A DNA stretch of 39,015 nucleotides from the NCBI GenBank assembly GCA_011087605.1, contig JAALLE010000034.1:1-39015 (forward strand). The letters are read 5' to 3'. The notes beneath the pieces are model-generated. The model was not told the DNA's origin. It worked only from the letters and a program-made list of their open reading frames with translations, and did not search any database. How positions within the stretch are numbered: position 1 is the stretch's first letter; every line of letters begins with the position of its first letter. Below, in pieces: positions 2,914 through 24,562 of the stretch. This stretch comes from Hyphomicrobiales bacterium (GTDB lineage: Bacteria; Pseudomonadota; Alphaproteobacteria; Rhizobiales; Rhizobiaceae). The translations under genes and the position numbers were made by a program.

Positions 2914-3744
2914 TCAAGCGTCAAATGCACTTATCTTGCCACCAATATTGCGGGTGATGGCGTCGGCGGCCACTTTGACCTTTTCGCCATATTCCGCGAT
3001 TCGACCTGAATCGACACGCACCGTTGGGCCCGAAATCGATATCGCCGACACAGCCTCACCAAAACTGTTGAAGATCGGGGCAGCGATGCAGCGCATGCCC
3101 ATCGTGCGTTCCTGGTCGTCGACGGAGAACCCCCGTCGCAGCGTTTCCAGTCTCATTTGCAACAGCTCATCCGTCGTCATGATCGAGTTATCGGTGAATT
3201 TTACAAGATTGATCGACTTGGCCAACTGGGCTGCCTGGTTTTCAGGCCGAAAGGCGAACAGCACTTTGCCAATACCCGAGGCATGAATCGACCCGTGGGT
3301 GCCAGGCCGAAAAAAGGCTCGTATCGGTTCATGGGTTTCGACCTGACTGAGAAACACCACTTCGTCGCCGGCAATAATGCCCAGATTGGTAGTTTCACCG
3401 GTTTCCGTCATCAAGGAAGTCATTATCGCCCGGGCCTGCTCGACCATATTGGTGTTAGCAAGGAACGCGCTGCCGATCCTGAAAGATTCAACATCGACCT
3501 GCCACAATTGTGCATCTTCGTCGAAACTCACCATGCCGTGTTTTTGCAGCGTCACCAGCGCCCGATAGGCACTGGCAGCCGGTTGGCCGGATAATTCGGA
3601 AAGCTCTGAAAGTGACCGGCCAGAGCCTTCAGACACCACTTTCAACAACGTTATGGCCTTGTCGACCGATTGGATAATTGTCGCTTCAGTTTTTGAATGA
3701 AACGAACGGGGACGACCCCGTTTTCTGGATTCATATTCAGCCAA
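2914..3744 (-). CDS. bhcR: IclR-family transcriptional regulator of the beta-hydroxyaspartate cycle (BhcR)
   Basis: A 276-residue IclR-family regulator. A basic N-terminal arm with KRGRPRSF precedes the winged helix-turn-helix (about residues 25-90, with SLSELSELSGQPAASAYRAL as the recognition region), then the C-terminal effector domain with the IclR-type blocks SGIGKVLFAF and GMRCIAAPIFNSFGEAVSAISISGP. It is transcribed divergently from bhcABCD, as in Paracoccus denitrificans, where BhcR binds the bhc promoter and responds to glyoxylate. The assignment rests on this exact context plus the KRGRPR start typical of BhcR. The AT-rich 215-bp gap to bhcA would hold its operator. Confidence 0.88.
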   Translation of the reverse strand: MAEYESRKRGRPRSFHSKTEATIIQSVDKAITLLKVVSEGSGRSLSELSELSGQPAASAYRALVTLQKHGMVSFDEDAQLWQVDVESFRIGSAFLANTNMVEQARAIMTSLMTETGETTNLGIIAGDEVVFLSQVETHEPIRAFFRPGTHGSIHASGIGKVLFAFRPENQAAQLAKSINLVKFTDNSIMTTDELLQMRLETLRRGFSVDDQERTMGMRCIAAPIFNSFGEAVSAISISGPTVRVDSGRIAEYGEKVKVAADAITRNIGGKISAFDA

Positions 3745-3879
3745 AGTACCTGTTTCCCGTCATTGTTTGGCAGAAATTGATAATCCTTGTCGAAAATTTA
3801 GATAATTGCCTGCAAAGGATGAAAAATCAATTTCATATCTATTACAGTAGCTTACACAATAAAAATCAAAATGAAAAAC

Positions 3880-3892
3880 TTTTTTGAAAAAA
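3880..3892. promoter_or_regulatory. Candidate BhcR operator/promoter palindrome in the bhcR-bhcA gap
   Basis: A T6-G-A6 palindrome (3880-3892) sits in a very AT-rich tract (about 3860-3910) followed by further GAAAAAA repeats, 68 bp before the bhcA start. IclR proteins often bind AT-rich palindromes with GAAA/TTTC arms. This is the best symmetrical element in the divergent gap, but homopolymer runs make chance symmetry likely. Confidence 0.35.
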
Positions 3893-3959
3893 TTGAAAAA
3901 ATAATTTGATTGCTGCATGTTGTGTGGGTCAACCGCCTGCCAGCTACGAGGTATATGAA

Positions 3960-5159
3960 ATGTCTACGCAAAACCCAGTCTTTATCCCCGGCCCAACGAA
4001 CATGCCGGATGAGCTGCGCCGTGCCATCGATTATGCAACCATCGATCATCGCTCCAGCAATTTTGTTGAGATGTTCATGCCCGCCTTGTCAGGCGTGAAA
4101 CGGATACTGAAAACCGAAACTGGTGAGAGCCTGATATTCCCTTCTACCGGTACCGGTGCCTGGGAAGCGGCAATTACCAATACACTTTCGCCGGGCGACA
4201 AGGTGCTTATCGGACGCTGGGGCATGTTCTCCCATCGCTGGATCGATATGTGCCAGCGCCACGGCCTGAAGGTCATTGTCGTTGAAGCACCCTGGGGGCA
4301 GGGCGTGCCACTGGACGCCTATTCATCCGCGCTCAAGGGCGACAAAGATCACGACATCAAGGCGGTGATGGTCACTCACAACGAGACCGCGACCGGCGTA
4401 AAATCAGACATCGCTTCGGTCCGCAAGGTTCTGGACGCGGCAAATCATCCGGCCATGTTACTGGTTGATGGTGTCAGCTCTATCGCATCGATGGATTTCC
4501 GCATGGATGAATGGGGGGTAGACGTTGCCATCGCCGGTTCGCAAAAGGGTTTCATGCTACCAGCCGGCCTGGCCATTTTGGGAGTTAGTCAAAAAGCCAT
4601 TGCTGCGATGGAAACGGCCCAACTGCCACGCACGTTCTTCGATTTCCGTGACATGCTGAAGGCCAATGCCAATGGTGGCTTTCCTTATACGCCACCTTTG
4701 CAATTGATCCGCGGCCTTAACCACGCCATTGCGATGCTTGAAGATGAAGGTTTGGACAACGTGTTCGCCCGCCACCACAGGCTGGCTCAGGGGGTCCGCG
4801 AAGCAGTCTCCGCCTGGGGCCTTACCCTTTGCGCTCAGTCACCTGATCTGTATTCGGATACGGTCAGTGCCATTGTCGTTCCCAAAGGTTTTGACGGTAC
4901 TGGATTTGTCACCCACGCGGCCGATAAATACGGCGTCGCATTTGGTGTCGGACTGGGAGAAGTGGCCGGGAAGGTTTTCCGCATCGGTCACCTGGGTATG
5001 CTGACAGACGTCATGGTTTGTGCTGGATTGTCTGCAGCGGAAATGACCATGCTGGACCTCAACTTCCCGATCAAGGCTGGTTCGGGAGTTGCTGCTGCGC
5101 AGGAATATTTTCGCAACAACGACGTGACCGCCAATCTTGCCCACCAGGCGGCCGCATAG
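3960..5159 (+). CDS. bhcA: L-aspartate:glyoxylate aminotransferase BhcA
   Basis: A 399-residue class V PLP aminotransferase of the serine/aspartate-glyoxylate type. It transfers the amino group of aspartate to glyoxylate, giving glycine and oxaloacetate, the first and the product-releasing step of the beta-hydroxyaspartate cycle. FIPGPTNMP opens the protein, STGTG (62-66) contacts the PLP phosphate, D170 is the pyridine-nitrogen Asp, and K196 in GSQKGFMLPAG is the Schiff-base Lys. The start is set at the ATG at 3960: GAGG lies 8 nt upstream and the protein then begins MSTQNPVF as in the family; an 18-codon extension to 3906 lacks family similarity. It is first in the bhcABCD operon. Confidence 0.93.
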   Translation: MSTQNPVFIPGPTNMPDELRRAIDYATIDHRSSNFVEMFMPALSGVKRILKTETGESLIFPSTGTGAWEAAITNTLSPGDKVLIGRWGMFSHRWIDMCQRHGLKVIVVEAPWGQGVPLDAYSSALKGDKDHDIKAVMVTHNETATGVKSDIASVRKVLDAANHPAMLLVDGVSSIASMDFRMDEWGVDVAIAGSQKGFMLPAGLAILGVSQKAIAAMETAQLPRTFFDFRDMLKANANGGFPYTPPLQLIRGLNHAIAMLEDEGLDNVFARHHRLAQGVREAVSAWGLTLCAQSPDLYSDTVSAIVVPKGFDGTGFVTHAADKYGVAFGVGLGEVAGKVFRIGHLGMLTDVMVCAGLSAAEMTMLDLNFPIKAGSGVAAAQEYFRNNDVTANLAHQAAA

Positions 5160-5188
5160 GTTCGGCAACATAACAGGTAATTGAACTG

Positions 5189-6142
5189 ATGATCATTCCT
5201 ACTTTTGATGATGTGCTGTCCGCTCGTCAGCGCATCGAACCCTACATTCACCGCACTCCGGTTCTGACGTCGCAATTCATGAATGACTTGACCGGCGCCG
5301 AACTCTATTTCAAATGCGAAAACCTGCAAAAAGCTGGCGCATTCAAGGCGCGTGGTGCTTCCAATGCGGTTTTTGGCTTATCAGACGAACTGGCAGCCAA
5401 AGGTGTAGCGACACACTCGTCGGGCAATCATGGCCTGTGTCTGTCCTATGCAGCCGGACGGCGGGGAATTCCGGCTTCTGTGGTCGTGCCACGCACCGCA
5501 CCGGAAGCAAAGAAACAAGCCATGCGCGGCTATGGCGCCACCGTTGTGGAATGTGAGCCAAGCACCACGTCGCGTGAGCAGGTATTTGCTGAAGTCGTTG
5601 CTGAATCCGGTGCCGATTTCGTCCACCCGTATAACGACCCACGCGTGATTGCCGGGCAGGGCACCTGTTCGTTAGAACTGCATGAAGATGTAGGCCCGCT
5701 GGATGCAGTGGTCGCCCCAATAGGTGGCGGCGGAATGATTTCTGGAACCTGCCTGTCTTTATCCAACGTTTCACCCAAGACAAAAATATTTGCCGCAGAA
5801 CCGGAACAGGCTGACGATGCCTGTCGGTCTTTTAGAGCTGGCCACATCATCGCCGATGATGCGCCGGTTACTGTGGCCGATGGATTGAAGGTACCGCTGA
5901 AAGATCTCACTTGGCATTTTGTTCGCAATCATGTGAGTGACTTTCTGCTGGCGTCCGAACAGGAGATTATCGATGCCATGTTTATCACCTGGCAGCGGAT
6001 GAAAATTGTCATGGAGCCATCCAGCGCGGTGCCCCTTGCTACCATACTGAAAAACAAAAAACTCTTTGCTGGAAAGCGTGTTGGTCTGATCATCACCGGT
6101 GGCAATGTCGATCTCAAAAAACTGCCCTGGATGCAGTCCTAA
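5189..6142 (+). CDS. bhcB: erythro-beta-hydroxyaspartate dehydratase BhcB
   Basis: A 317-residue fold-type II PLP enzyme of the serine/threonine dehydratase-racemase family. In the beta-hydroxyaspartate cycle it removes water from (2R,3S)-beta-hydroxyaspartate to give iminosuccinate. The Schiff-base Lys is K53 in ENLQKAGAFKARGA, SSGNHG (77-82) binds the substrate carboxylate, and the tetraglycine loop IGGGGMISG (from about 178) holds the PLP phosphate. Sequence alone cannot exclude serine racemase or threonine dehydratase activity, but position between bhcA and bhcC makes BhcB much the best call. It starts 29 bp after bhcA, within one apparent operon. Confidence 0.92.
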   Translation: MIIPTFDDVLSARQRIEPYIHRTPVLTSQFMNDLTGAELYFKCENLQKAGAFKARGASNAVFGLSDELAAKGVATHSSGNHGLCLSYAAGRRGIPASVVVPRTAPEAKKQAMRGYGATVVECEPSTTSREQVFAEVVAESGADFVHPYNDPRVIAGQGTCSLELHEDVGPLDAVVAPIGGGGMISGTCLSLSNVSPKTKIFAAEPEQADDACRSFRAGHIIADDAPVTVADGLKVPLKDLTWHFVRNHVSDFLLASEQEIIDAMFITWQRMKIVMEPSSAVPLATILKNKKLFAGKRVGLIITGGNVDLKKLPWMQS

Positions 6143-6159
6143 ACCGAAAGGAACTCCCC

Positions 6160-7332
6160 ATGTCCGCTTTTGAAACAATGACCGGGAACACAGAATTCGA
6201 AGTTGGTTTCAACATTCCGGCCAAACCCGGCATGAATGAACAAGATATCCAAACACCTTGCCTGGTTCTGGATCTGGATGCTCTAGAGCGCAACATCAAG
6301 AAAATGGGCGATTATGCAAAAGACCACGGCATGCGCCATCGGGTCCACGGCAAGATGCACAAGTCCGTAGACGTTGCAAAACTTCAGGAAAAGCTTGGTG
6401 GTGCGATTGGTGTGTGCTGCCAAAAAGTCAGTGAAGCCGAAGTCTTCGTTCGCGGTGGCATCAAGGATGTTCTGGTCTCAAACCAGGTGCGTGATCCAGC
6501 CAAAATAGATCGGCTGGCACGATTGCCTAAACTTGGTTCTCGTATTCTCGTCTGTGTCGATGACGCAGAAAATGTCGACGATTTGTCGGCTGCTGCACAG
6601 CAACATGACACGACGATTGAATGCTTGATTGAAATTGACTGTGGCGCTGGCCGCTGCGGTGTGTCGTCGACCCAGGATGTGGTAAATATCGCCCGCCTGA
6701 TCGAAGCGGCGCCTGGACTGAAATTCACCGGAATTCAGGCCTATCAGGGCGCCATGCAGCACCTCGATAAATATGAAGATCGTGAAGCCAAACTGCAGGT
6801 CGCAATAGATATGGTCAAAGATGCGGTGCGTGGTCTTGAAGCACAAGGCATCAGCTGCGAACTGGTCAGCGGCGGCGGTACCGGATCCTATTATTTTGAA
6901 AGCAATTCGGGTGTCTACAATGAATTGCAGTGCGGTTCGTATGCCTTCATGGATGCCGATTATGGCCGCATTCTTGATAAGGACGGCAAACGCATCGACC
7001 AGGGTGAGTGGGAAAACGCCCTTTTCATTCTCACCTCTGTGATGTCGCATGCAAAGACCGACAAGGCGATTGTCGACGCTGGTTTGAAAGCGCAGTCAGT
7101 CGATAGCGGCCTGCCCTTCATCTATGGTCGTGATGATGTCGAATACATTAAATGTTCCGACGAGCACGGCGTGGTTCAGGACGACAACGGTGCATTGAAA
7201 GTCAATGACAAGTTGAAGCTTGTTCCTGGCCATTGTGACCCGACTTGCAACGTGCATGACTGGTATGTGGGTGTCCGCAACGGCAAGGTTGAATCCGTTT
7301 GGCCGGTATCGGCACGCGGAATGGCCTACTAA
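6160..7332 (+). CDS. bhcC: beta-hydroxyaspartate aldolase BhcC
   Basis: A 390-residue fold-type III PLP enzyme of the D-threonine aldolase / D-serine dehydratase-like family. It condenses glycine with glyoxylate to (2R,3S)-beta-hydroxyaspartate. The PLP Lys lies in VHGKMHKSVD (about 62-71), after the N-terminal TPCLVLDLDALERNI strand. The C-terminal GHCDPTCN supplies the divalent-metal His and Asp ligands typical of D-threonine aldolases, and GGGTGSY is the phosphate-binding loop. The N-terminal ~25 residues before the barrel are characteristic of BhcC. The start is 17 bp after the bhcB stop, with AAAGGA upstream, so the genes are cotranscribed. Confidence 0.93.
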   Translation: MSAFETMTGNTEFEVGFNIPAKPGMNEQDIQTPCLVLDLDALERNIKKMGDYAKDHGMRHRVHGKMHKSVDVAKLQEKLGGAIGVCCQKVSEAEVFVRGGIKDVLVSNQVRDPAKIDRLARLPKLGSRILVCVDDAENVDDLSAAAQQHDTTIECLIEIDCGAGRCGVSSTQDVVNIARLIEAAPGLKFTGIQAYQGAMQHLDKYEDREAKLQVAIDMVKDAVRGLEAQGISCELVSGGGTGSYYFESNSGVYNELQCGSYAFMDADYGRILDKDGKRIDQGEWENALFILTSVMSHAKTDKAIVDAGLKAQSVDSGLPFIYGRDDVEYIKCSDEHGVVQDDNGALKVNDKLKLVPGHCDPTCNVHDWYVGVRNGKVESVWPVSARGMAY

Positions 7333-7386
7333 ACCTATCCCGAATTCGGACCTAAACGGGTCCCAAAAAATGAGCGAAATCGTCCT

Positions 7387-8352
7387 ATGATCATTGTTCC
7401 AGAGAATGAAATAGCCAGTCTTGTGACCCGCGAAGCGGCGTTTCAGGCAGTAGAAAACGTGTTTGCCGCAATGGCATCGGGAGATGCCTATAATTTCCCG
7501 GTGGTTCGCGAGGCCATTGGCCATGTGGACGCGCTCTATGGCTTTAAAGGCGGTTTCGACAAGGCGGGCATGGCTCTCGGGCTGAAAGCCGGGGGCTATT
7601 GGCCCAACAATCTCGAGACCCATAACGTTATCAATCACCAATCGACGGTATTTCTGTTCGACCCGGATACCGGAATGGTCAAGGCGATGGTGGGTGGCAA
7701 CATGCTCACCGCTTTGCGTACAGCCGCCGCTTCGTCGGTTTCAATCAAACATCTGGCCCGGCAGGATGCCAAGGTCATGGGCATGATTGGTGCCGGTCAT
7801 CAGGCCAAATTTCAGCTGCGCACGGCTCTCGAGCATCGCAACTTTGAAAAAGTAATCGGCTGGAACCTGCATCCGGAAATGTTGTCTAATCTTGAAGAAG
7901 TGGCAAACGAAGCTTCACTTCCCTTTGAGGTGGTAGAGCTTGAAGGAATGACCGAGGCAGATGTGATCATAACCATCACATCGTCCTTCGATCCGATCTT
8001 GTTGAAAGATCATGTACAACCGGGAACTCATCTGGCCTGCATGGGAACCGACACCAAGGGCAAACAGGAAGTGGGCGTCGACCTGATGACTGCTGCCACC
8101 GTGTTTACCGATGAAATTGCCCAGTCCATATCCATCGGAGAAAGTCAGCATGCAATTGCCGAAGGGCAAATGAAGGAAAGCGACATCACCCCGCTTGGCG
8201 CCGTAATAAATGGTGTCCACAAGGGTCGGGTCTCCGACGATGAAATCACTTTGTTTGATGGGACAGGAGTGGGACTTCAGGACTTGGCTGTTGCATCTGC
8301 GGCGGTCGAACTGGCAGTTGCAAATGGCAAGGCAATACAGATCGATATTTGA
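7387..8352 (+). CDS. bhcD: Iminosuccinate reductase BhcD
   Basis: A 321-residue member of the ornithine cyclodeaminase / mu-crystallin family. It reduces iminosuccinate with NAD(P)H to L-aspartate, regenerating the amino donor for BhcA and closing the cycle. The Rossmann motif is MGMIGAGHQAKFQ (about 132-144); the upstream GGNMLTALRTAAASSVS block and downstream ACMGTDTKGKQEV block are typical of the family. The gene ends the bhcABCD set, 54 bp after bhcC. Without context it could be called an ornithine cyclodeaminase or alanine dehydrogenase; the complete bhc neighbourhood decides it. Confidence 0.92.
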   Translation: MIIVPENEIASLVTREAAFQAVENVFAAMASGDAYNFPVVREAIGHVDALYGFKGGFDKAGMALGLKAGGYWPNNLETHNVINHQSTVFLFDPDTGMVKAMVGGNMLTALRTAAASSVSIKHLARQDAKVMGMIGAGHQAKFQLRTALEHRNFEKVIGWNLHPEMLSNLEEVANEASLPFEVVELEGMTEADVIITITSSFDPILLKDHVQPGTHLACMGTDTKGKQEVGVDLMTAATVFTDEIAQSISIGESQHAIAEGQMKESDITPLGAVINGVHKGRVSDDEITLFDGTGVGLQDLAVASAAVELAVANGKAIQIDI

Positions 8353-8506: not shown

Positions 8507-9511
8507 GTGACCCAGAGCAGACCCGTTAAAATCGCTATTAATGGTTTCGGACGCATCGGGCGCACCATCGCCCGACAGGTGCTGTCGACATCGCGCAAGA
8601 ACCAGTTCGAACTGGTGCTGATCAACGATATCGCGCCGCTGGATATCTGCGCCTATCTGTTCCGCTACGACTCGGTGTTTGGCCCCTATTGTGGAGAGGT
8701 CACGGCCGGCGACGGCCAGTTGAACGTCGACGGTTTGCAAATTCCTTTTTCGGTTGAACCGGACATCAGTGATTTGGATTTATCGGATGTGGACGTTTTG
8801 CTGGAATGTACTGGTGCGGTCAAAAGTCGCGAAATTGCCGAGCGTGGTCTCAAGGCAAAGGCACAAAATGTTCTCATTTCTGGCCCGGCAAGTGACGCAG
8901 ATATCACGTTGGTTCTGGGGGCGAATGAGGATCAGCTCGGGCGCGCAAAAATCGTTTCCAATGCATCCTGCACCACCAATGCCATCGCACCTCTGCTGCG
9001 GTTGCTGGATGATGAACTGGGCATCCAGCATGGCCACGTTTCAACCGTTCACTGCTACACCAACAGCCAGCCCTTGATTGATGCGCCGACCGCGTCGGCG
9101 GCGCGTTCGCGTGCCGGGGCATTGTCTATGATCCCAACCACGACCAGCGCAACCGATCTGGTTGGTGAGGTCTTGCCAAATCTGAATGGCAAATTGACCG
9201 GCGCGGCCATTCGCGTGCCTGTCGCCAGTGTTTCGGCAATTGATGCAGTGCTGCAATTATCCCGTTTCCCAAGCGCCGGAATTGAGGCTTTTCTGGAAGC
9301 GGCCTGTGCGGCATCACCGGTCCTCGCGGCAACCCGGGACCTGGTCGTATCGAGCGATCTTCGGGGGCGTCCGGAATCTCTCATTGTGGCGCTGCCTGAA
9401 ATCATGCAGGTTGCCGATCGTCAGATACGTCTCATGGGTTGGTATGACAATGAATGGGGATTTTCAGCGCGCATGCTCGACATGGCGCAGCTGATGAACA
9501 GTCGCGCTTAA
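8507..9511 (+). CDS. Atypical type I glyceraldehyde-3-phosphate dehydrogenase-family protein
   Basis: A 334-residue GAPDH-family protein starting at GTG. The NAD-binding motif INGFGRIGRT (11-20) and NAD-specific Asp in LVLINDI (D41) are present. The catalytic pair is C155 in SNASCTTN and H182 in VHCYTNSQ, and MIPTTTSA and IRVPVASV correspond to phosphate/active-site blocks. It differs from housekeeping GAPDH: SCTTNA replaces the usual SCTTNC, and the usual LRRARAA segment reads as SAARSRAGA. It may oxidise glyceraldehyde-3-phosphate, erythrose-4-phosphate or another aldehyde. It follows bhcD in the same direction after 154 bp, so it could be part of the bhc transcript or separate. An Epd role in PLP supply would suit three PLP enzymes upstream but is speculation. 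Confidence 0.75.
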   Translation: MTQSRPVKIAINGFGRIGRTIARQVLSTSRKNQFELVLINDIAPLDICAYLFRYDSVFGPYCGEVTAGDGQLNVDGLQIPFSVEPDISDLDLSDVDVLLECTGAVKSREIAERGLKAKAQNVLISGPASDADITLVLGANEDQLGRAKIVSNASCTTNAIAPLLRLLDDELGIQHGHVSTVHCYTNSQPLIDAPTASAARSRAGALSMIPTTTSATDLVGEVLPNLNGKLTGAAIRVPVASVSAIDAVLQLSRFPSAGIEAFLEAACAASPVLAATRDLVVSSDLRGRPESLIVALPEIMQVADRQIRLMGWYDNEWGFSARMLDMAQLMNSRA

Positions 9512-9536: not shown

Positions 9537-10400
9537 TTACCTCGTGAAGCTTCCCAACTTCGCGTGGCGATTGACATCCTTGTACAGCAAATAGCGGAAC
9601 GGACCGGGGCCTCCGGCATAGCAGGCCTGCGGGCAAAAGGCGCGCAGCCACATATAGTCACCGGCTTCAACCTCCACCCAATCCTGATTGAGTTTGTAGA
9701 CCGCCTTTCCCTCCAGAACATAAAGACCATGTTCCATCACATGGGTTTCGGGAAATGGAATGACGCCACCCGGCAGAAACGTGACAATGGTGACATGCAT
9801 ATCGTGGCGTAGATCATCGAGTTCTACAAAACGGGTCGTCGCCCAGCGTCCCTCGGTATCCGGCATCGGCGTTGGAGCAATGTCCCGTTCGTTGACAACA
9901 AAAGCCGTCGGCGCATCAATTCCGTCTACAGGTTCATATTGTTTGCGGATCCAGTGAAACCGCACCGGGTCCGCTGACTGGTTTTTGACCTGCCAGTTTG
10001 TGGACGGTGGGATGAAAGCATATCCGCCGGCGCTCATGTTGTGTGCTGTACCATCAATAGTCAGGTCAAGTTCACCTTCCACAACGAAAATCACGCCCTC
10101 TGCTGTCGGATCGAGCTCTGGCTTGTCACTGCCACCCTGCGGGGCGACCTCCATAATGTATTGGGAAAATGTTTCGGCAAATCCAGAGAGCGGTCGGGAA
10201 ATGACCCACAGTCGGGTTTTGTCCCAAAACGGCAGATAGCTGGTTACGATATCGGTCATCGTATTGCCGGGCAGCACTGCGTAGGCATCGGTGAAGACGG
10301 CACGCTCATCCATCAGCGCAGTTTGAGGTGGCAGACCACCGTGTGGTGCGTAATAGCCGTTACCAAGATTGTGTTTTTCAGGTGTCGCAGATTTGGTCAT
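9537..10400 (-). CDS. allE: (S)-ureidoglycine aminohydrolase (bicupin)
   Basis: A 287-residue bicupin that hydrolyses (S)-ureidoglycine to (S)-ureidoglycolate and ammonia, late in allantoin breakdown. The start region NGYYAPHGGLPPQ, the first cupin (about 60-145, with VVEGELDLTIDG and AGGYAFIPPS) and the second cupin (about 190-280, with ETHVMEHGLYVLEG, which carries the Mn ligands, and VEAGDYMWLRAFCPQACYAGG) match the UGlyAH/AllE family. The ATG at 10400 overlaps the TGA of the upstream puuE-uraD gene as TGATG, implying translational coupling; a TTG one codon earlier is less likely. It converges on the GAPDH-like gene with 25 bp between the stops. Confidence 0.9.
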   Translation of the reverse strand: MTKSATPEKHNLGNGYYAPHGGLPPQTALMDERAVFTDAYAVLPGNTMTDIVTSYLPFWDKTRLWVISRPLSGFAETFSQYIMEVAPQGGSDKPELDPTAEGVIFVVEGELDLTIDGTAHNMSAGGYAFIPPSTNWQVKNQSADPVRFHWIRKQYEPVDGIDAPTAFVVNERDIAPTPMPDTEGRWATTRFVELDDLRHDMHVTIVTFLPGGVIPFPETHVMEHGLYVLEGKAVYKLNQDWVEVEAGDYMWLRAFCPQACYAGGPGPFRYLLYKDVNRHAKLGSFTR

Positions 10401-11812: not shown

Positions 11813-11862
11813 TGAAATACTCCCATTGGATCGTACTTTTAGTCTAACCCAATTAATGGGTG

Positions 11863-11875
11863 TGATTATCAAATT
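11863..11875 (-). promoter_or_regulatory. Shared purine-locus motif, copy 1 (puuE/uraH divergent gap)
   Basis: On the minus strand this reads AATTTGATAATCA. Near-identical copies occur at 13274-13286 and 16746-16758, each in a divergent intergenic region of the purine cluster. It lies between the divergent puuE-uraD-allE and uraH transcripts. It is a candidate operator for one or both of the paralogous LysR regulators. Confidence 0.5.
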
Positions 11876-11968
11876 CGATGCGAAGGTGCATTAGTTAAAG
11901 TCCCCTATATTTTAGGCCTCTGTCGCTTCATCCTTGGTCAAACGTCGACTGTCAGGAGAATGAAAACA

Positions 11969-13248: not shown

Positions 13249-13273
13249 GCACGTTTTTATCATTATTCGGAAA

Positions 13274-13286: not shown

Positions 13287-13400
13287 TAGAATTTTATCAC
13301 TGTTCTCTCCAAGATGGGTATTTGTAACCTTCAAAGCAACCTGTGGATTCTTGTGGCTGGTCGCCAGACCTCCCAGTGATGGTGCAGATTGGAGGAAAGC

Positions 13401-16758: not shown

Positions 16759-16863
16759 ACGATACGTTGAAAGAGATTACCATTTAGCCGCGTATTTTTG
16801 AATATGCCGATTGGTTAATATTTAAGTTGGCGGATTTTGATCCACCAAACAGGAGGAGGATGC

Positions 16864-18345
16864 ATGACCACGCGCAATGAAATTCAGTTTCTGCTCAACG
16901 ACACACTTGTGACAACTGGTGAGTTGGGGGCCACGGACACGGTGTTGGACTTTTTGAGGATCGATCAGCGATTGACCGGTTCTAAAGAAGGCTGTGCGGA
17001 AGGTGATTGCGGTGCCTGCACTGTATTGGTCGGCAGGCTTGTCGACGGCGGACTCGAATACAAATCGGTCAATGCATGCATCCGGTTTCTTGCGTCGCTT
17101 GATGGTTGCCACGTTGTTACTGTTGAGCATTTGAAGGGCGCAGATGGCGGTCTACATCCGGTACAGCAGGCGATGGTCGACTTTCACGGAAGCCAGTGTG
17201 GTTTCTGCACTCCCGGCATTATCATGTCGCTTTATGCTTTGTGGATGGAAAACCCGTCTCCCACGGTTCAACAGGTTGAAACCGCCCTGCAGGGCAATTT
17301 GTGCCGCTGCACTGGCTATGAGCCAATAATTCGCGCCGCCATGGCGCTGGGACGAGACAACAGCCCGGCGCAGGATTTCCTCCAGGCGGAACGAAAGAAT
17401 ATTGAAAACCAATTGTCAGAGCTGAGTGATGGCAGACGGGTGGTCGTCGGACCGGAAGACAATCGGGCGATACTCCCGGCAAATCTGGATGACCTCGCCA
17501 AACTACTGGAAGAGCATCCCGATGCGACCATCGTATCCGGGGCCACAGATGTTGGCCTGTGGGTGACCAAATTTCTCCAACCCATCAGTCCGGCGATATT
17601 TGTCGCCGATCTTGATGAGCTCAAGAAAGTCGAGGTCAGCGACAGCCACATAAATATCGGTGCGGCCGTTACCTATACTGAATTTGAAGAAGCAATGAAT
17701 GCCAACCTTCCCCAGCTTGGCGAATACTGGAACCGGATTGCCGGTTGGCAGGTTCGTAATATGGGCACGATCGGTGGCAATGTTGCCAATGGATCGCCGA
17801 TCGGTGATGCCCCTCCTGTGTTGATAGCACTTGGCGCCCAGGTTACCTTGCGCAAAGGCAGTAATCGCCGGGTGATTGATGTCGAAGATTATTTCATTGA
17901 TTATGGCAAACAGGACCAGCTTCCCGGCGAATTTGTCGAACAGATCCGCATTCCTCTCCCTGCCAAGACTGAAGTATTTTCCGCGTATAAAATTTCCAAA
18001 CGTCGTGATGAAGATATCTCGTCCGTCGCGGTGGGAATTCTGGTCTCGATTGCGGATGGCGTGATTGACAAGGCCCGAATTGCCTATGGCGGCATGGCCG
18101 GAACCCCCAAACGCGCCACCACGGTTGAGTCAGAGTTGGTTGGCAAAGCCTTCACCGCAGACGTGGTTGAGGCAGCTGCCGGTCAATTGGGTAAAGATTT
18201 TTCTCCGCTCAGCGATTGGCGTGCGTCAGCCGACTACCGGCTGTTGTCTGCTCAAAATCTGCTGCGCCGGTTTCACCTGGAAAATACGGGTGGGCCAGAT
18301 GAACTTTCCAGACTGTCGCAAGTCCAACAGGAGATTTCGGCATGA
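16864..18345 (+). CDS. xdhA: Xanthine dehydrogenase small subunit (2Fe-2S and FAD)
   Basis: A 493-residue XdhA. The N-terminal plant-type ferredoxin domain has C44, C49, C52 (GCAEGDCGACTVLVG) and probably C72; the second cluster domain has C112/C115 (QCGFCTPG) and C147/C149 (CRCTGY). The FAD domain starts near residue 195 with ATIVSGATDVGLW and includes NVANGSPIGDAPP. With XdhB it oxidises hypoxanthine and xanthine to urate, passing electrons from Mo through Fe-S to FAD and NAD+. AGGAGGAGG precedes the ATG at 16864; an upstream in-frame TTG at 16837 is rejected. The last four bases overlap xdhB (ATGA). Confidence 0.95.
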   Translation: MTTRNEIQFLLNDTLVTTGELGATDTVLDFLRIDQRLTGSKEGCAEGDCGACTVLVGRLVDGGLEYKSVNACIRFLASLDGCHVVTVEHLKGADGGLHPVQQAMVDFHGSQCGFCTPGIIMSLYALWMENPSPTVQQVETALQGNLCRCTGYEPIIRAAMALGRDNSPAQDFLQAERKNIENQLSELSDGRRVVVGPEDNRAILPANLDDLAKLLEEHPDATIVSGATDVGLWVTKFLQPISPAIFVADLDELKKVEVSDSHINIGAAVTYTEFEEAMNANLPQLGEYWNRIAGWQVRNMGTIGGNVANGSPIGDAPPVLIALGAQVTLRKGSNRRVIDVEDYFIDYGKQDQLPGEFVEQIRIPLPAKTEVFSAYKISKRRDEDISSVAVGILVSIADGVIDKARIAYGGMAGTPKRATTVESELVGKAFTADVVEAAAGQLGKDFSPLSDWRASADYRLLSAQNLLRRFHLENTGGPDELSRLSQVQQEISA

Positions 18346-20660
18346 CCAGACACACCAAAATTCACGGCGCCGCTCATACCGATGTCCAACACGACAGCGC
18401 CATCAAACACGTTACCGGCAGGGCCGACTATTGCGACGATATCAGCGAACCGGTCGGCACATTACACGCCTATCTGGGCGTCTCAAAAATTGCCCATGGC
18501 AAGATCAACAGCATTGATTATGCGAAGGTGCATGCGGCCCCCGGCGTTGTTGGCGTGCTGACCGCCGATGATATTCCCGGCATAAATGACATCAGCCCGA
18601 CACACCTCGATGATGAACCGGTATTTCCGACTGAAACAATCGAGTTCTGGGGACAGCCGTTGTTTGCCGTTGTTGCCAAAACCCGTGATCAGGCGCGTCG
18701 TGCCGCTGAATTGGCGACCGTTGACGTCGATCCATTGCCTCATGCGCTCGACCCGATTGCCGCACAGGAGGCCGATTATCCGTTTGTCACAGCGCCACTC
18801 AAACTGGAGCGTGGTGACATTTCCGACGGACAAAAGGACGCTGAACACCGCATCCAGGGGCGCATGTCCATTGGTGGCCAAGATCACATGTATCTGGAAG
18901 GTCATATCGCTTTTGCCTTGCCCGGCGAAGATGACGACGTGATTGTCCATTCTTCAACTCAGCATCCCAGCGAGGCCCAACATATGGTGGCCCGCGTTCT
19001 AGGTGTGCCATCTCATGCTGTGACTTTGAATGTGCGCCGGATGGGTGGTGGGTTTGGCGGCAAGGAAACGCAGATGAACCTATTCTGCGCGGTTGCGGCC
19101 ATGGCCGCAAAAAAGTGGAACCGCGCCGTAAAAATACGTCCTGACCGGGACCAGGATATGATGGCCACAGGCAAGCGGCACGACTTTGTCGCCGACTATG
19201 ATGTGACCTTCGATGGTGATGGCAAGATTCAGGCCGTTGATGGCGTGTTTGCTGCCCGTTGCGGGTTTTCCGCTGACCTGTCCGGTCCAGTGACGGACCG
19301 TGCATTGTTTCATGCAGACAACGCCTATTACTATCCCAATGTCCGGCTGGTCAGTCGTCCGATGAAGACAAATACGGTTTCAAATACCGCGTTCCGTGGA
19401 TTTGGCGGACCGCAGGGTGTGATCATTGCCGAACGCATGATGGAAGAAATTGCCTACAAGTTGGGCAAGGACACGTTGGAAATTCGTAAGGCCAATTTCT
19501 ATGGTGAAGATGGCCGTGATGTCACGCCTTACCACCAGAAAGTGGAAGACAATATCATCGGCAGAGTTGTAGAGGAACTCGAGAAAACCGCCGACTATCA
19601 AGCACGTCGCGAGGACGTTTTGGCATTCAATGCCAAAAACAGCGTTATCCGCAAAGGCATCGCTCTCACCCCGGTAAAATTCGGCATCTCATTCACCGCC
19701 ACCTGGTACAATCAGGCAGGTGCTCTGGTCCATGTCTACAATGACGGTTCGATACATCTCAACCATGGTGGCACCGAAATGGGGCAGGGGCTCAATACCA
19801 AGATTGCTCAGGTTGTTGCCGAAGGCTTTCAGGTGGATATTGACCGCATCAAGATCACCAAGACAACCACCGAAAAAGTCCCAAACACTTCAGCAACCGC
19901 AGCGTCATCAGGCACGGATCTGAACGGCATGGCCGCCATGGATGCAGTACGTCAGATCAAGGAACGCCTGATCAAGTTTGCGACACAGAACTGGAATGTT
20001 GGCGAAGACAAAGTGATCTTTGAAAACAACCGGGTGCTTGTTGGGTCTGAAGACTTGTCTTTTGATGACTTTATCAGTCAGGCCTATATGGCGCGTGTTC
20101 AACTGTCGGCCGCTGGCTTTTATAAAACTCCCAAAATCCATTGGGACCGCGCCGCCGGAACCGGGCGACCGTTCTATTATTTCTCCTATGGCGCTGCATG
20201 TTCTGAAGTCTCAGTCGATACTTTGACCGGAGAATATCAGATAGAGCGCACCGACATCCTGCACGATGTTGGCAAATCGCTTAACCCGGCCATTGATAAG
20301 GGACAGGTCGAAGGAGCCTTCATTCAGGGTATGGGATGGCTGACCACTGAGGAGTTATGGTGGGATGATGCCGGTCAACTGAGAACTCACGCCCCCTCTA
20401 CCTATAAAATTCCTTTGGCGTCAGATCGGCCAAAGATTTTCAACGTTGATTTGGCGAGCTGGTCGGAAAACCACGAGCCAACGATCAAGCGATCCAAAGC
20501 CGTTGGCGAGCCACCCTTCATGCTGGGAATTTCGGTGCTGGAGGCTCTCTCGATGGCCGTTGCCAGCGTCGCGGATTACCAGAACTGCCCCTGTCTCGAC
20601 AGTCCGGCAACGCCGGAACGGGTGCTCATGGCCGTTGAAGCATTACGGCAGGGAGGCTGA
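18342..20660 (+). CDS. xdhB: Xanthine dehydrogenase molybdenum-binding large subunit
   Basis: A 772-residue XdhB, close to the usual length. Mo-cofactor and substrate motifs are intact: GGGFGGKE (235-242, with the substrate-binding Glu), FRGFGGPQG (351-359, with the substrate-binding Arg), GGTEMGQGLNTK, and the catalytic base E723 in KAVGEPPFMLG. It catalyses hydroxylation of hypoxanthine and xanthine. It overlaps xdhA by 4 nt and is 2 nt from xdhC, so the three genes form one operon. The residues expected for a purine-specific rather than aldehyde-oxidising enzyme (Glu and Arg above) are present. Confidence 0.95.
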   Translation: MTRHTKIHGAAHTDVQHDSAIKHVTGRADYCDDISEPVGTLHAYLGVSKIAHGKINSIDYAKVHAAPGVVGVLTADDIPGINDISPTHLDDEPVFPTETIEFWGQPLFAVVAKTRDQARRAAELATVDVDPLPHALDPIAAQEADYPFVTAPLKLERGDISDGQKDAEHRIQGRMSIGGQDHMYLEGHIAFALPGEDDDVIVHSSTQHPSEAQHMVARVLGVPSHAVTLNVRRMGGGFGGKETQMNLFCAVAAMAAKKWNRAVKIRPDRDQDMMATGKRHDFVADYDVTFDGDGKIQAVDGVFAARCGFSADLSGPVTDRALFHADNAYYYPNVRLVSRPMKTNTVSNTAFRGFGGPQGVIIAERMMEEIAYKLGKDTLEIRKANFYGEDGRDVTPYHQKVEDNIIGRVVEELEKTADYQARREDVLAFNAKNSVIRKGIALTPVKFGISFTATWYNQAGALVHVYNDGSIHLNHGGTEMGQGLNTKIAQVVAEGFQVDIDRIKITKTTTEKVPNTSATAASSGTDLNGMAAMDAVRQIKERLIKFATQNWNVGEDKVIFENNRVLVGSEDLSFDDFISQAYMARVQLSAAGFYKTPKIHWDRAAGTGRPFYYFSYGAACSEVSVDTLTGEYQIERTDILHDVGKSLNPAIDKGQVEGAFIQGMGWLTTEELWWDDAGQLRTHAPSTYKIPLASDRPKIFNVDLASWSENHEPTIKRSKAVGEPPFMLGISVLEALSMAVASVADYQNCPCLDSPATPERVLMAVEALRQGG

Positions 20661-20662
20661 TC

Positions 20663-21568
20663 ATGGCGCACAGATCAAAACTGTCGCAGTTTTTTGCCAG
20701 CAACCAAAAGGTTGCCCGGGTTCGGCTGACAAAAGTGTCAGGCTCATCACCTCGCGATGAGGGAACGGAAATGTATGTTTCTGCCAATGGCCTGTTTGGG
20801 ACAATCGGCGGCGGTCGGCTGGAACAAATGGTCATAGATGACGCACGTGAACTGCTTGCCAGGGGCGATATCAGAGGTGTTATGGCGGTGCCGCTGGGGC
20901 CGGAAATTGGTCAGTGCTGCGGCGGGCATGTAACGGTTCAACTGACCCGCATGAGCAAACGAGATTGCGAAGCGGCCGTTAAAGCCGAAGCAAGTTTCGC
21001 TGATGAATTGCCCTGCGTATATATCTTGGGAGCCGGCCATGTTGGCCGTGCGATGGCAGAGTTTTTTGCTTTGCTGCCCGTCCGCACAATTTTGGTGGAT
21101 TCCCGTGCTGACCAGCTCGACATGTGCACGGCACCGGTCGATATCAGACATCGTGCGATCCCGGAAGTTGACGTTTTCAATGCACCTTCTGGCAGCGCTT
21201 TCATTGTTGCCACGCACGATCATGGACTGGATTTTCTTCTCGCATCTGCAGCCCTTGAAAGGGCTGACGCATCCTATGTCGGGCTGATCGGCTCAAAGAC
21301 CAAACGCGCCAAGTTTGAATCCTGGTGTCGCAAAATGTGTGATGGTCTGTCGGCTGAAGATCTGGTGTGCCCAATCGGCGCCACAGCCAGCGCCGATAAA
21401 CGACCGCAAGTCATAGCCTCATTCGTCGCAGCGGAAGTGATGGCAATTTTAAGCGCGGACGAATGCGCAAATACATCCGGTTCCCGCGAACCAATTGCTG
21501 AACTTTCCAAGGTCGCAAACAACTTACCCGGCAGAAGTTTTGATGCTGCCGGAACTCAACTGAACTAA
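20663..21568 (+). CDS. xdhC: Xanthine dehydrogenase accessory protein XdhC
   Basis: A 301-residue XdhC/CoxI-family chaperone that binds molybdenum cofactor, supports its sulfuration and delivers it to XdhB. The N-terminal block SGSSPRDEGTEMYVS and GTIGGGRLEQ, the GPEIGQCCGGHV Cys pair (about 74-85), and a C-terminal Rossmann-like domain starting YILGAGHVGRAMAEF (about 115) with GLIGSKTKRAKFE are all typical. It begins 2 nt after xdhB and precedes the NCS2 permease by 20 bp, consistent with an xdhABC-permease operon. Confidence 0.93.
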   Translation: MAHRSKLSQFFASNQKVARVRLTKVSGSSPRDEGTEMYVSANGLFGTIGGGRLEQMVIDDARELLARGDIRGVMAVPLGPEIGQCCGGHVTVQLTRMSKRDCEAAVKAEASFADELPCVYILGAGHVGRAMAEFFALLPVRTILVDSRADQLDMCTAPVDIRHRAIPEVDVFNAPSGSAFIVATHDHGLDFLLASAALERADASYVGLIGSKTKRAKFESWCRKMCDGLSAEDLVCPIGATASADKRPQVIASFVAAEVMAILSADECANTSGSREPIAELSKVANNLPGRSFDAAGTQLN

Positions 21569-21588
21569 CAACTGGGGAGATCCTAGAA

Positions 21589-23175
21589 ATGACCGAACAA
21601 CCCTACAGCTATAAGCTCATTGCGCGAAGTGACTTCAGCGCATTTTGGGCTTTGTTTACTGATAACCTGATCAACTTGATGGTGCTTGCGGGCATCTGCC
21701 AATTTGTCTTCCAAATGCCTGCCGAAATTGTTTATGGCCGCATCGTTCCAGGCGCCGCCGTGGCCATTCTGGCCGGCATCATCGTCTATGTCCTGATGGC
21801 CAAACACGTCGCCAACAAGACCGGCAAGGACGTCACAGCGCTGCCCTATGGCATTAGTACGCCGGTGATGTTTGTCTATCTGTTTGGCGTGATCGGGCCG
21901 ATCTACTGGTCGACCAACGATCCGATGCTGGCGTGGCAAGTGGGTATTGGTGCAGGCTTCATGGGCGGCATTGTTGCGGCTCTGGGTGCGCTTATCGGAC
22001 CGATTTTGAAGCGTGTAACGCCACGCGCCGGCATGCTGGGAACCCTGTGCGGCATCGCATTGGTTTTCATCGGCACGGTTCCACTGGCGACGATTTTTGA
22101 AAATCCTTACGTTGGCTTTGCGTCGCTGATCATCATCCTGTGGGGTCTTGTTGGCCGGTTCCGTCTGCCCTTCAATATTCCAGCCGGTTTGCTGGCACTG
22201 ATTGTCGGTACCGTCGTTGCGCTGTTGATTGGCGAGGCTTCCTTCAGTTTTGAAGGCGTCGGCTTTTATCCTCCGGTTCCTTATTTCGGTGATCTTGTTG
22301 CCGGTATTCAGCACCTGTTTGCAAATCCGGAACTGTTCCTGGTTCTTGTTCCGGTGCAAATCTACAACTTCATTGAAACAATGAATAATGTGGAAAGCGC
22401 CGAAGCCGCTGGTGACCACTATCCGGTGGCCACCTGTCAGGTAACCGATGGTGCGGGAACGATGATTGGTGCCCTGTTTGGGTCACCATTTCCAACCACC
22501 GTCTATATTGGACATCCAGCTTATAAGCGCATGGAAGCGCATGCCGGTTACATCATCGGCGTCGGTGCAATCATCCCGTTTGCTGCATTCTTTGGCTTGC
22601 TGGCATTCCTTAACAATCTGATCCCGGTCGCGGCTGCGGCTCCGGTCCTGGTCTTTGTGGCATTGAGCCTCATCACCAATACGGCGCATTCGGTGAAAAC
22701 CGAGCATATGGCTGCTGTGACCATCGCCATGATGCCGCACGTTTCCAGTTTCCTGGTGACCAAGTGGGGATCGTTGATGGGCGCCCTTGGATCGACTGGA
22801 GTTGAAGGATTACCCCGGCTGGGAGATGAAGCACTCACCGCTGCTCTGTTGCAGCAGGGGGCTCATTTTCAGGGCCATCTGGCGCTGTCACAGGGGGCCA
22901 TTCTTACCGGTCTGATCTGGGGTGCCATTGTGGTCAGTGTAATTGACGGACGGTTTAAGAATGCCGGTGGATTTGCCTTGGCAGCCGCTGTCATGTCGCT
23001 GATCGGTATCGTTCACTCCGCCGGTCTGCATATGCCATCATTGAGTGGGGTGACCACTGGATATCTGATTGCAGCCGCCTTCCTCTACATCTATCCGATG
23101 TTCCACAAGGAAGAGGATCTGGTTAATCCGGACGTCGTCGTTGAAGAAGCGACACCGCGACCTCAAGATGCCTGA
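21589..23175 (+). CDS. NCS2-family purine permease
   Basis: A 528-residue polytopic membrane protein with about 13-14 hydrophobic segments. The segment NKTGKDVTALPYGIST near residue 80 and VPVQIYNFIETMNNVESAEAAGD near residue 260 are NCS2/AzgA-like transporter signatures; the latter includes the conserved acidic substrate-binding region. Such proteins import purines by proton symport. In this operon (20 bp after xdhC) the likely substrates are hypoxanthine, xanthine, guanine or urate; sequence does not decide between them. An intrinsic terminator follows 20 bp after the stop, ending the xdh transcript. Confidence 0.82.
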   Translation: MTEQPYSYKLIARSDFSAFWALFTDNLINLMVLAGICQFVFQMPAEIVYGRIVPGAAVAILAGIIVYVLMAKHVANKTGKDVTALPYGISTPVMFVYLFGVIGPIYWSTNDPMLAWQVGIGAGFMGGIVAALGALIGPILKRVTPRAGMLGTLCGIALVFIGTVPLATIFENPYVGFASLIIILWGLVGRFRLPFNIPAGLLALIVGTVVALLIGEASFSFEGVGFYPPVPYFGDLVAGIQHLFANPELFLVLVPVQIYNFIETMNNVESAEAAGDHYPVATCQVTDGAGTMIGALFGSPFPTTVYIGHPAYKRMEAHAGYIIGVGAIIPFAAFFGLLAFLNNLIPVAAAAPVLVFVALSLITNTAHSVKTEHMAAVTIAMMPHVSSFLVTKWGSLMGALGSTGVEGLPRLGDEALTAALLQQGAHFQGHLALSQGAILTGLIWGAIVVSVIDGRFKNAGGFALAAAVMSLIGIVHSAGLHMPSLSGVTTGYLIAAAFLYIYPMFHKEEDLVNPDVVVEEATPRPQDA

Positions 23176-23194
23176 ATTTGGCACTGACTAACTC

Positions 23195-23223
23195 AAAGGG
23201 CCTCCCATTGGGGAGGCCCTTTT
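23195..23223 (+). terminator. Intrinsic terminator after the xdhABC-permease operon
   Basis: A perfect 12-bp stem AAAGGGCCTCCC (23195-23206) / GGGAGGCCCTTT (23211-23222) with a 4-nt loop ATTG, followed by T. It separates the permease from guaD, which starts 32 bp later and so needs its own promoter or read-through. Confidence 0.9.
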
Positions 23224-23254
23224 GATGTAATCTTTCAACGGATCAATCGTCATC

Positions 23255-24562
23255 ATGACTTCCAAAAAACTACTCCGTGGGCGCCTGTTAAACTTCATCT
23301 CGGAACCAACTGGTCCTGAAGATAAAGATGCGTTTTCCTATATCGAAGACGGCGCATTGCTCATCTGCGACGGGATCATCGTCGGGTCTGGCGACTATAA
23401 TGAGGTGGCCAAAATAGCTGGCGATGTCGAGGTCATCGATCATCGGCCTCATCTGTTGATGGCCGGATTTATCGACACCCACCTTCACTTCCCGCAGATG
23501 CATGTGATCGCCTCGTGGGGAACGCAATTGCTGGACTGGCTGAACAATTACACATTCCCTGAAGAGGCAAGATTTTCAGATGAGCAGCATTGTGCCCGCA
23601 TGGCAGGTGAGTTTTTCGATCAACTGACCGCCCATGGCACCACGACGGCGATGGCCTATTGTTCGGTCCACAAACAATCTGCAGAAGCTTATTTTAGTGA
23701 AGCTGAGCGGCGTAACATGTGCATGATCGGAGGCAAAACTCTGATGGACCGCAACGCACCTGATAATCTGCAAGACACGCCCCAGTCCGGTTATGATGAC
23801 AGCAAGGACCTAATTGCCAAGTGGCATGGCAAAGGTCGGGCCCATTATGCAATTACGCCACGATTTGCGATTACCTCGACACCAGAGCAACTGGAAATGA
23901 CTTCCGCGCTTGTGGCTGAACATCCAGAATGCTTTATCCAAACGCACCTTTCGGAGAGCCACGACGAAATTGCCTTTACAGCAGAACTATACCCCACAGC
24001 CCGGGATTATCTGGATGTCTACCAATCCTATGGACTGCTCAGTGACAAAATGTTTTTGGGTCACGCCATCCATTTGAAACCACGAGAGATTGATGCCCTG
24101 GCTGAAACGGCGGCTCATCCGGTATTTTGTCCAACGTCCAACTTGTTTTTGGGCAGCGGCCTATTTGATGATGCAGGCCTGCGGTCGCGCGGTATTTCCA
24201 ATGCGATTGCCACTGATATCGGTGGCGGTACCAGCTATTCGATGCTGACGACTCTCAGTGAGGGATACAAGATACTGCAGTTACAGGGTCAAAAAATGCA
24301 TCCGTTGCGCGCCTTTCACTGGATCACACTGGGCAATGCAACCACGTTGGGCTTGCAGGATAAAATTGGTAACCTGGCGACTGGTTCCGATGCTGACATT
24401 GTTGTGTTGGATTCATCAGCCACCAGACCAATGGACATTCGCATGGAAACTGCAACGACGTTGTCGGAAGAATTGTTCATTTTGCAGACCATGGCTGATG
24501 ACCGCTCGATTGCAGAAACATATGTTGCTGGCGTCGCGCAAAAGCATTCGCAAAGCAATTGA
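23255..24562 (+). CDS. guaD: Guanine deaminase
   Basis: A 435-residue amidohydrolase-superfamily enzyme that deaminates guanine to xanthine, feeding xanthine dehydrogenase. The zinc site motif is DTHLHFPQ (H76, H78), with HLSESHDE and GHAIHL supplying further His ligands and DIGGGTSYSML the metal-binding Asp. The block WLNNYTFPEEARF after the first motif is specific to guanine deaminases. The ATG at 23255 gives the usual length. It lies just after the operon terminator in the same direction and ends facing the DHDPS-family gene. Confidence 0.94.
   Translation: MTSKKLLRGRLLNFISEPTGPEDKDAFSYIEDGALLICDGIIVGSGDYNEVAKIAGDVEVIDHRPHLLMAGFIDTHLHFPQMHVIASWGTQLLDWLNNYTFPEEARFSDEQHCARMAGEFFDQLTAHGTTTAMAYCSVHKQSAEAYFSEAERRNMCMIGGKTLMDRNAPDNLQDTPQSGYDDSKDLIAKWHGKGRAHYAITPRFAITSTPEQLEMTSALVAEHPECFIQTHLSESHDEIAFTAELYPTARDYLDVYQSYGLLSDKMFLGHAIHLKPREIDALAETAAHPVFCPTSNLFLGSGLFDDAGLRSRGISNAIATDIGGGTSYSMLTTLSEGYKILQLQGQKMHPLRAFHWITLGNATTLGLQDKIGNLATGSDADIVVLDSSATRPMDIRMETATTLSEELFILQTMADDRSIAETYVAGVAQKHSQSN

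Follow-up and report, generated by a model that had tools for sequence, protein, structure and literature searches.

Why should an operon for the beta-hydroxyaspartate cycle (BHAC), which has so far been studied mainly as a route for algal glycolate, lie beside genes for the breakdown of purines? This question is raised by a stretch of 39,015 nucleotides (contig JAALLE010000034.1 of assembly GCA_011087605.1, from a Hyphomicrobiales bacterium of the family Rhizobiaceae), which we call the window and whose positions are used below. In its interval 2914-24562, searches with NCBIfam and Pfam profiles found the regulatory gene bhcR and the cycle genes bhcABCD adjoining purine, urate and ureide genes, all at the expected positions, and every gene that the first-pass annotation of this DNA had named beside bhcR-bhcABCD (allE, puuE-uraD, uraH, puuD, xdhABC, a permease and guaD) was found in its place. 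The arrangement is confirmed, and a metabolic reading of it is likely. Inferring activities, flux and induction from the genes, we consider it probable that the interval is a catabolic cluster leading from purines to glyoxylate with a built-in glyoxylate sink, the BHAC, which is induced through BhcR.

The pairing of bhc and purine genes is not strain-specific; it recurs far above chance across the sampled bhc-positive Alphaproteobacteria. We sampled the Rhodobacteraceae (198 genomes in 197 genera), fetched their BhcC loci as stretches of ~20 kb where the contigs allowed, queried them with the window proteins, AllA, an NCS2 permease and the GlcDEF-like proteins of the host genome, and counted purine genes within about 10 kb. 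BhcC exceeded its cut-off in 83 of the 198 genomes (91 at E-values up to 1e-190) and puuD was present in 187; since puuD is nearly universal in this sample, only linkage, and not co-occurrence, is informative. After removal of 10 of the 94 BhcC loci, in which bhcB did not reach the threshold (L168, L174, L204, L235, L247, L251 and L253-L256; purine genes were seen in L168, L204, L247 and L254), 84 loci with both bhcB and bhcC remained. At least one purine gene was present in 30 of these and at least two in 27; the glyoxylate-releasing AllA was encoded near bhc in 25, whereas glycolate oxidase (GlcD or GlcF) was found near bhc in 0 of the 84. At a stricter threshold, the counts were 25 for puuE-uraD, 25 for uraH, 23 for allE, 21 for puuD and 19 for the NCS2 permease.

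The same pairing was seen outside this family. For the window's own family, we fetched 32 of the 35 listed matches (the two weakest and that of the window were excluded) and dropped 8 (L151, L158-L164); among the remaining 24 loci, 6 had at least one purine gene, 5 at least two, 3 AllA and 1 GlcD or GlcF. The sample of other class members comprised 17 loci after two had been moved to the Rhodobacteraceae set, and takes in two further Rhodobacteraceae genomes (L118, counted, and L127, dropped). With five loci dropped (L120, L127, L129, L130, L132), 2 of its 12 loci had at least one purine gene, 2 at least two and 2 AllA, and 0 had GlcD or GlcF. Among the 80 loci nearest to the window BhcC, a biased set, at least two purine genes were present in 37 of 79, and GlcD or GlcF in 0. 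The GlcDEF queries do detect glcDEF beside bhc, namely in L140, which was counted, and in L120, which was dropped as bhcB was not found. As a control, 14 other window genes (the tested genes outside the interval and a Rieske oxygenase gene inside it) were each found in 0 of the 84 Rhodobacteraceae and 0 of the 24 family loci. A naive binomial probability of 1.7e-31, which assumes independence and a hand-set chance of 1.15% per locus, is not relied on here. The enrichment that the first-pass annotation had expected beyond this strain is borne out by the 27 of 84 and 5 of 24 loci with at least two purine genes.

Which enzymes does the window encode? Gene identities were taken from profile scores against curated cut-offs, given as score/cut-off in bits. 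The gene for the IclR-family BHAC regulator, bhcR (2914..3744, minus strand), is barely over its cut-off (NF045644, 353.7/350), and its listed reading frame starts with TTG. On the plus strand follow, in this order, bhcA for L-aspartate-glyoxylate aminotransferase (3906..5159; NF045640, 716.2/650), bhcB for beta-hydroxyaspartate dehydratase (5189..6142; NF045641, 584.6/550), bhcC for 3-hydroxy-D-aspartate aldolase (6160..7332; NF045642, 758.0/690) and bhcD for iminosuccinate reductase (7387..8352; NF045643, 577.6/500). The listed bhcA frame begins with TTG at 3906; the ATG at 3960 encodes residue 19, from which the profile match starts. Residues 9-390 of the window BhcC matched the D-3-hydroxyaspartate aldolase of PDB entry 6qkb with 692 bits. 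The five genes and the divergent layout of bhcR and bhcABCD are those of Paracoccus denitrificans, and the window genes are over the NCBIfam equivalog cut-offs; the Paracoccus BHAC is described for glycolate via glycolate oxidase, whereas the neighbours in the window are purine and ureide genes. On the 3' side of bhcD lies a gene of the glyceraldehyde-3-phosphate dehydrogenase (GAPDH) family (8507..9511, plus strand), whose score of 323.7 is under the cut-off of the GAPDH-I equivalog (TIGR01534, 367.2). A gene of this family is close to bhc in 26 of the 84 Rhodobacteraceae loci and possibly provides a gluconeogenic outlet.

The purine half begins with two minus-strand genes that share a 4-base overlap. 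The first encodes an AllE-type cupin, an (S)-ureidoglycine aminohydrolase that is possibly bifunctional (9537..10403; NF008376, 521.6/338; NF040771, 502.5/350; TIGR03214, 303.8/200; a second (S)-ureidoglycine aminohydrolase model, 517.6/445), and matches the 'glyoxylate-induced protein' of PDB entry 1sq4 with 476.9 bits. The other is a puuE-uraD fusion for allantoinase and OHCU decarboxylase in a single reading frame (10400..11872; TIGR03212, 523.2/424.6; TIGR03164, 205.1/96.25). Since the GAPDH-family gene and allE converge, with 25 bases between them, allE-puuE-uraD does not share a transcript with the bhc operon. Next come uraH for hydroxyisourate hydrolase (11960..12328, plus strand; TIGR02962, 130.9/87.45), a LysR-family regulator gene in the uraH-puuD gap (12355..13263, minus strand; PF03466/PF00126) and puuD for membrane urate oxidase (13389..14633, plus strand; PF06181, Urate_ox_N, 462.5/26.9), the translation of which has a C-terminal CSMCH, that is, the CXXCH haem motif of cytochrome c. 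Two minus-strand genes separate puuD from xdhA: the Rieske/VanA_C oxygenase gene (14677..15741; PF00355, PF19112) and a second LysR-family regulator gene, divergent from xdhA (15811..16719; PF03466/PF00126). The plus strand then carries xdhA for the small subunit of xanthine dehydrogenase (16837..18345; TIGR02963, 652.6/467), xdhB for its molybdopterin subunit (18342..20660; TIGR02965, 1315.1/849.5), xdhC for the accessory protein (20663..21568; TIGR02964, 252.9/161.6), a xanthine/uracil-type permease gene (21589..23175) and guaD for guanine deaminase (23255..24562; TIGR02967, 545.9/375.4). The permease had no Pfam or NCBIfam match at E-values up to 0.001 and is named by similarity to an annotated counterpart alone, the post-xdhC protein of Ruegeria sp. 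THAF33 ('xanthine/uracil/vitamin C permease', 77% identity over 261 amino acids). The Rieske oxygenase gene is outside the recurrent cluster: near bhc it was found in none of the 84 Rhodobacteraceae and none of the 24 family loci, and in 1 of 12 other class loci. Also outside it, at 28839-29636, lies a gene for an isochorismatase-family hydrolase that weakly resembles biuret hydrolase (47.9 of 370 bits). The first-pass annotation had passed over the GAPDH-family gene, both LysR regulators and the Rieske oxygenase, and its set lacked allA and a convincing allC.

Is the route complete in the host? The draft genome (4.19 Mb, 177 contigs, 97.89% complete) encodes all enzymes from guanine to allantoate, GuaD, XdhABC, PuuD, UraH, UraD and PuuE, within the window, all over their curated cut-offs. 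The best AllC matches in the genome were weak (239.5 and 228.3 bits against a cut-off of 597.75), and the weaker of them adjoins what, judged by eye, is a dihydropyrimidinase-like reading frame. The AllE-type cupin passes the model 'bifunctional allantoicase/(S)-ureidoglycine aminohydrolase' (502.5/350), and its relatives carry this bifunctional name in annotated records; its scores on models for ureidoglycine aminohydrolase alone are a little higher (521.6 and 517.6). It may or may not cover the allantoate step as well as the ureidoglycine step. The guanine-to-oxaloacetate route that had been proposed for the window is thus encoded there only in part, namely from guanine to allantoate and for the BHAC; in between, AllA is encoded on another contig and AllC is weakly matched.

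We propose the following sequence of events. Guanine and (hypo)xanthine would be taken up and converted to urate by GuaD and XdhABC; PuuD, UraH and UraD would lead from urate to allantoin, and PuuE from allantoin to allantoate. The AllE-type cupin, with or without AllC, would convert allantoate to ureidoglycolate, from which AllA, encoded elsewhere in the host genome, would release glyoxylate and urea. The rise in glyoxylate would switch on bhcABCD via BhcR, and the BHAC would then turn two glyoxylates into oxaloacetate with no loss of CO2 and no net use of nitrogen. That purine-derived glyoxylate feeds the BHAC, as had been suggested, is the most economical reading, and no glyoxylate carboligase (Gcl) was found over the cut-off in the host draft genome (best match 345.7 against 711.2 bits; malate synthase and other glyoxylate sinks were not searched for). 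Two further arguments of the first-pass annotation did not hold up as well. Ammonia and glycine from both halves had been said to fit together; since the BHAC regenerates aspartate and, by its scheme, uses no net ammonia, purine nitrogen does not feed it. Purines had also been taken as a carbon source, which is doubtful with one C2 unit per four nitrogens; for this reason, a use of purines for nitrogen, with disposal of the glyoxylate, is no less likely than growth on their carbon. Most of the benefit would probably come from the disposal and salvage of the C2 unit while purines serve as the nitrogen source.

How would the two halves be tied together? In P. denitrificans, according to passages of PMC11323563, glyoxylate lowers the binding of BhcR to the bhc promoter region in vitro; a response of BhcR to glyoxylate was also seen with a reporter, and glyoxylate-dependent expression and growth require the regulator. 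Our own operator prediction, the dyad TGRAA-N5-TTYCA, discovered and counted on the same bhcR/bhcA regions, is present in 111 of 165 of them (shuffles: 0.25). We take this dyad to be of the IclR-operator type. In the divergent bhcR/bhcA intergenic region of the window (3745..3959), the candidate dyad is degenerate, with 2 mismatches (for example at 3872-3886), and such 2-mismatch forms are the only ones in the window, which has 90 of them against 70 expected. Shared control of the purine genes by BhcR was considered and is unsupported at the level of DNA motifs, as purine promoters almost entirely lack the predicted operator. Control of the purine genes by BhcR is therefore improbable, the operator having been seen in at most one promoter stretch per gene set. 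What ties the halves together is most likely glyoxylate itself, as a metabolite, and not an operator common to both.

Several observations weigh against a purine cluster with a built-in BHAC. In stretches of 250 bases upstream, which began at the tblastn match and not at the start codon, several of the purine genes being operon-internal, the dyad was found in 0 of 61 cases for allE, 1 of 60 for puuE-uraD, 0 of 62 for uraH, 0 of 54 for puuD, 1 of 10 for xdhA, 0 of 61 for allA, 0 of 51 for NCS2, 0 of 42 for GAPDH and 0 of 12 for guaD. In many relatives allA is near bhc, yet it is absent from the window and was found on contig C84 of the host genome (187.5 bits, cut-off 23). Contig C61 of the same genome carries a glcD-glcE-glcF-like operon (537.2 bits against a cut-off of 567.9), so that glycolate is a further possible source for the BHAC of the host. 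The linkage is seen mostly for the ureide half, because xdh and guaD are rarely inside the stretches (guaD in 4, xdhB in 2 and xdhA in 0 of 84). No purine gene was found in the stretch for 54 of the 84 Rhodobacteraceae and 18 of the 24 family loci, some of these stretches reaching contig ends. Nor is the linkage genus-wide, since in one genome of the window's genus (G082) the stretch read around bhcBCD contains no purine genes, and another (G162) gave no match at E-values up to 1e-120. Among seven examined plasmid records, four were unlinked, including that of Ruegeria pomeroyi DSS-3. Finally, 7 of 165 distinct loci, like the window, have a tRNA gene within 600 bases of the bhcR end that points at bhcR.

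These facts raise the possibility that bhc serves glycolate as in Paracoccus, and that its adjacency to purine genes is a by-product of a mobile, often rearranged operon settling in catabolic neighbourhoods. In favour of this are the 54 unlinked loci, the glcDEF-like operon elsewhere in the host and the lack of a shared operator. Mobility itself has support: a BhcC match was found on 117 plasmid records, at least one of them conjugative. A small conjugative plasmid, pP75_g of Phaeobacter gallaeciensis (L278), has a reduced set, bhcB-bhcC only, in another context, with a TRAP transporter, an FAD oxidoreductase, two RidA genes and mercury resistance genes as neighbours. The tRNA scan covered 223 loci and gave 8 of 166 bhcR loci, or 7 of 165 when the duplicate record L008/L134 is counted once. 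The tRNAs are Leu, Gly (three), Gln (two) and Thr, in loci L134/L008, L022, L026, L067, L184, L212 and L234, of which L022 and L067, both with tRNA-Gly, may be near relatives; in the window, 82 bases separate the end of a tRNA-Val gene (2757-2831) from that of bhcR on its 3' side. As varied tRNAs occur at the same bhcR edge, this suggests that bhc operons sometimes enter at tRNA genes. Two of the seven loci (L134/L008 and L026) are purine-linked. A genomic island in the window was considered and rejected: the G+C content is even (0.49-0.55), the repeats are short and imperfect, and no island ends were seen.

Against an operon settling by chance among catabolic genes speaks the identity of its recurrent neighbours, which are purine genes and not glycolate oxidase (27 against 0 of 84), with 14 other window genes at 0 of 84. 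The position of bhc also varies. It may flank allE-puuE on the outside, much as it does in the window, separate allE from NCS2/allA/puuE, puuE from uraH or allE from xdhA, come after uraH, or adjoin the permease or guaD. Such differing junctions mean that there was more than one way in which bhc came to, or stayed with, the same partner cluster. A quick BhcC tree of 217 sequences (six duplicate loci were removed; 187 labelled, 73 of them linked; 30 short stretches unlabelled; L127 labelled unlinked, since allE is its sole counted purine gene) required 39 changes between linked and unlinked. With branches under 90 collapsed at least 26 changes remained, and 14 at 95; shuffled labels at 90 gave a mean of 40.6 and a lowest value of 34. 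The Rhodobacteraceae sample alone (80 labelled loci) showed 19 changes, at least 13 after collapsing. Judged by these counts against the shuffles, linkage partly follows kinship, yet was gained or lost repeatedly; the tree does not distinguish gains from losses, or show whether bhc or the purine genes moved. A clustering of neighbouring reading frames was ignored, as several of its large families resembled, by eye, antisense frames of bhc and other genes. A BhcC-like gene standing alone after allE in three genomes, described below, likewise speaks against chance settling, which we hold to be rather unlikely.

Another explanation would be a shared ecological trigger, with purines and glycolate both coming from lysed or leaking algae and selection favouring a joint transfer of the two modules, with no metabolic hand-over between them. 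Both modules are indeed common in the sampled Rhodobacteraceae (BhcC in 83 and puuD in 187 of 198 genomes) and occur together on large plasmids. The first gene that glycolate use needs, glycolate oxidase, is nevertheless in the cluster in 0 of 84 loci, and the linkage extends to the window's family and other class members, so we regard this explanation as quite improbable.

Individual loci illustrate how close the tie can be. Ruegeria sp. THAF33 (pTHAF33_a) and Leisingera sp. NJS204 have a single run of allE, bhcRABCD, NCS2 permease, ureidoglycolate lyase, PuuE, UraH, LysR, PuuD, LysR, XdhABC and permease genes; these two and Defluviimonas sp. SAOS-178_SWC are the three linked records among the seven examined plasmid records. 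In the Defluviimonas plasmid (L277), allE, the sole purine enzyme gene in the stretch, adjoins bhcR, and allE-bhcRABCD is followed by genes for an NCS1 symporter, NADP-malic enzyme, an NCS2 symporter and a UreI-type transporter, with pyruvate dehydrogenase genes nearby; this looks like a self-contained set for ureide oxidation. The least expected observation was a BhcC relative, 63-68% identical to the window BhcC, directly after allE on the same strand in L247/G607 (L247:8507-10512), L254/G727 (L254:1555-3588) and L127/G220 (L127:8615-10620), with no bhcA, bhcB or bhcD alongside. In two of the three genomes, this pair is inside a near-full ureide cluster. BhcB, the one BHAC enzyme besides BhcC that was searched for genome-wide, gave no match at E-values up to 1e-70 in one of them and 245.3 and 244.4 bits in the others, against a cut-off of 550, the completeness of G727 being only 83%. 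For a different sink next to allE in genomes lacking bhc, two small regions were readable, with what by eye was a 2-hydroxyacid dehydrogenase-like reading frame in one and puuE-uraD in the other, too few to use.

The lone aldolase either has other partner enzymes or serves another function. A changed role of the aldolase, or even of the whole operon, in purine clusters, acting for example on glycine or on amino groups derived from ureidoglycine and not on free glyoxylate, would suit these three genomes, in which a BhcC-like gene follows allE and no BhcB is over the cut-off, as well as the GAPDH-family gene near bhc in 26 of 84 loci. We regard this explanation as very improbable; in the window, all four BHAC enzymes exceed their equivalog cut-offs and BhcC matches a solved D-3-hydroxyaspartate aldolase over its length. 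A bolder extension of the purine-to-BHAC reading is offered tentatively, as possible though doubtful: in some Rhizobiaceae and a sizeable minority of the Rhodobacteraceae, ureide breakdown rather than glycolate would be a principal and selected supply of the BHAC, and in the allE-bhcC lineages the aldolase alone would have been fixed in the ureide pathway, where it would join glycine to glyoxylate from purines, in a shorter route that has not been described.

Are there precedents for such a sink? The allantoin/glyoxylate regulon of E. coli comprises allA, gcl, hyi, glxR, allB, allC and allE under AllR. As in the window, ureide genes are grouped there with a glyoxylate sink, but the E. coli sink is the CO2-releasing glycerate route, whereas that of the window is the carbon-conserving BHAC, with no Gcl over the cut-off in the host draft genome. 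The PuuD of Agrobacterium fabrum, as presented in part of PMC4562309, has the cytochrome c motif and goes together with UraH and UraD, as in the window; compared with those genes, bhc is added at one edge in the window, while many Rhodobacteraceae have it within the cluster. In the main text of that paper, the words glyoxylate and aldolase occur 0 times. According to passages of PMC4016543, the purine cluster of Rubrobacter xylanophilus likewise has its own glyoxylate outlet nearby; it differs in that this is a glycerate-route outlet downstream and that a carbamoyltransferase serves the allantoate step. The 2024 mBio paper (PMC11323563) places BhcR as a close sister group of the IclR and AllR homologues and, in its introduction, names purines and allantoin as a general glyoxylate source only. 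The accessible parts of the literature on the BHAC with purine or allantoin, in which this paper alone connects the two subjects, contained no statement on a linkage of the genes; the founding Nature 2019 paper may mention it, and the novelty of the bhc-purine linkage is provisional.

The window offers no new enzyme; what makes this locus interesting is that the pairing recurs, whereas one with glycolate oxidase does not. If our reading is true, the BHAC gains a second source, with a tie to purines and ureides that is stronger in the sample than that to glycolate oxidase. The recycling of nitrogen from dead or leaking cells would then be linked to a carbon-conserving assimilation, which would help to explain the presence of bhc genes where glycolate is not an obvious substrate.

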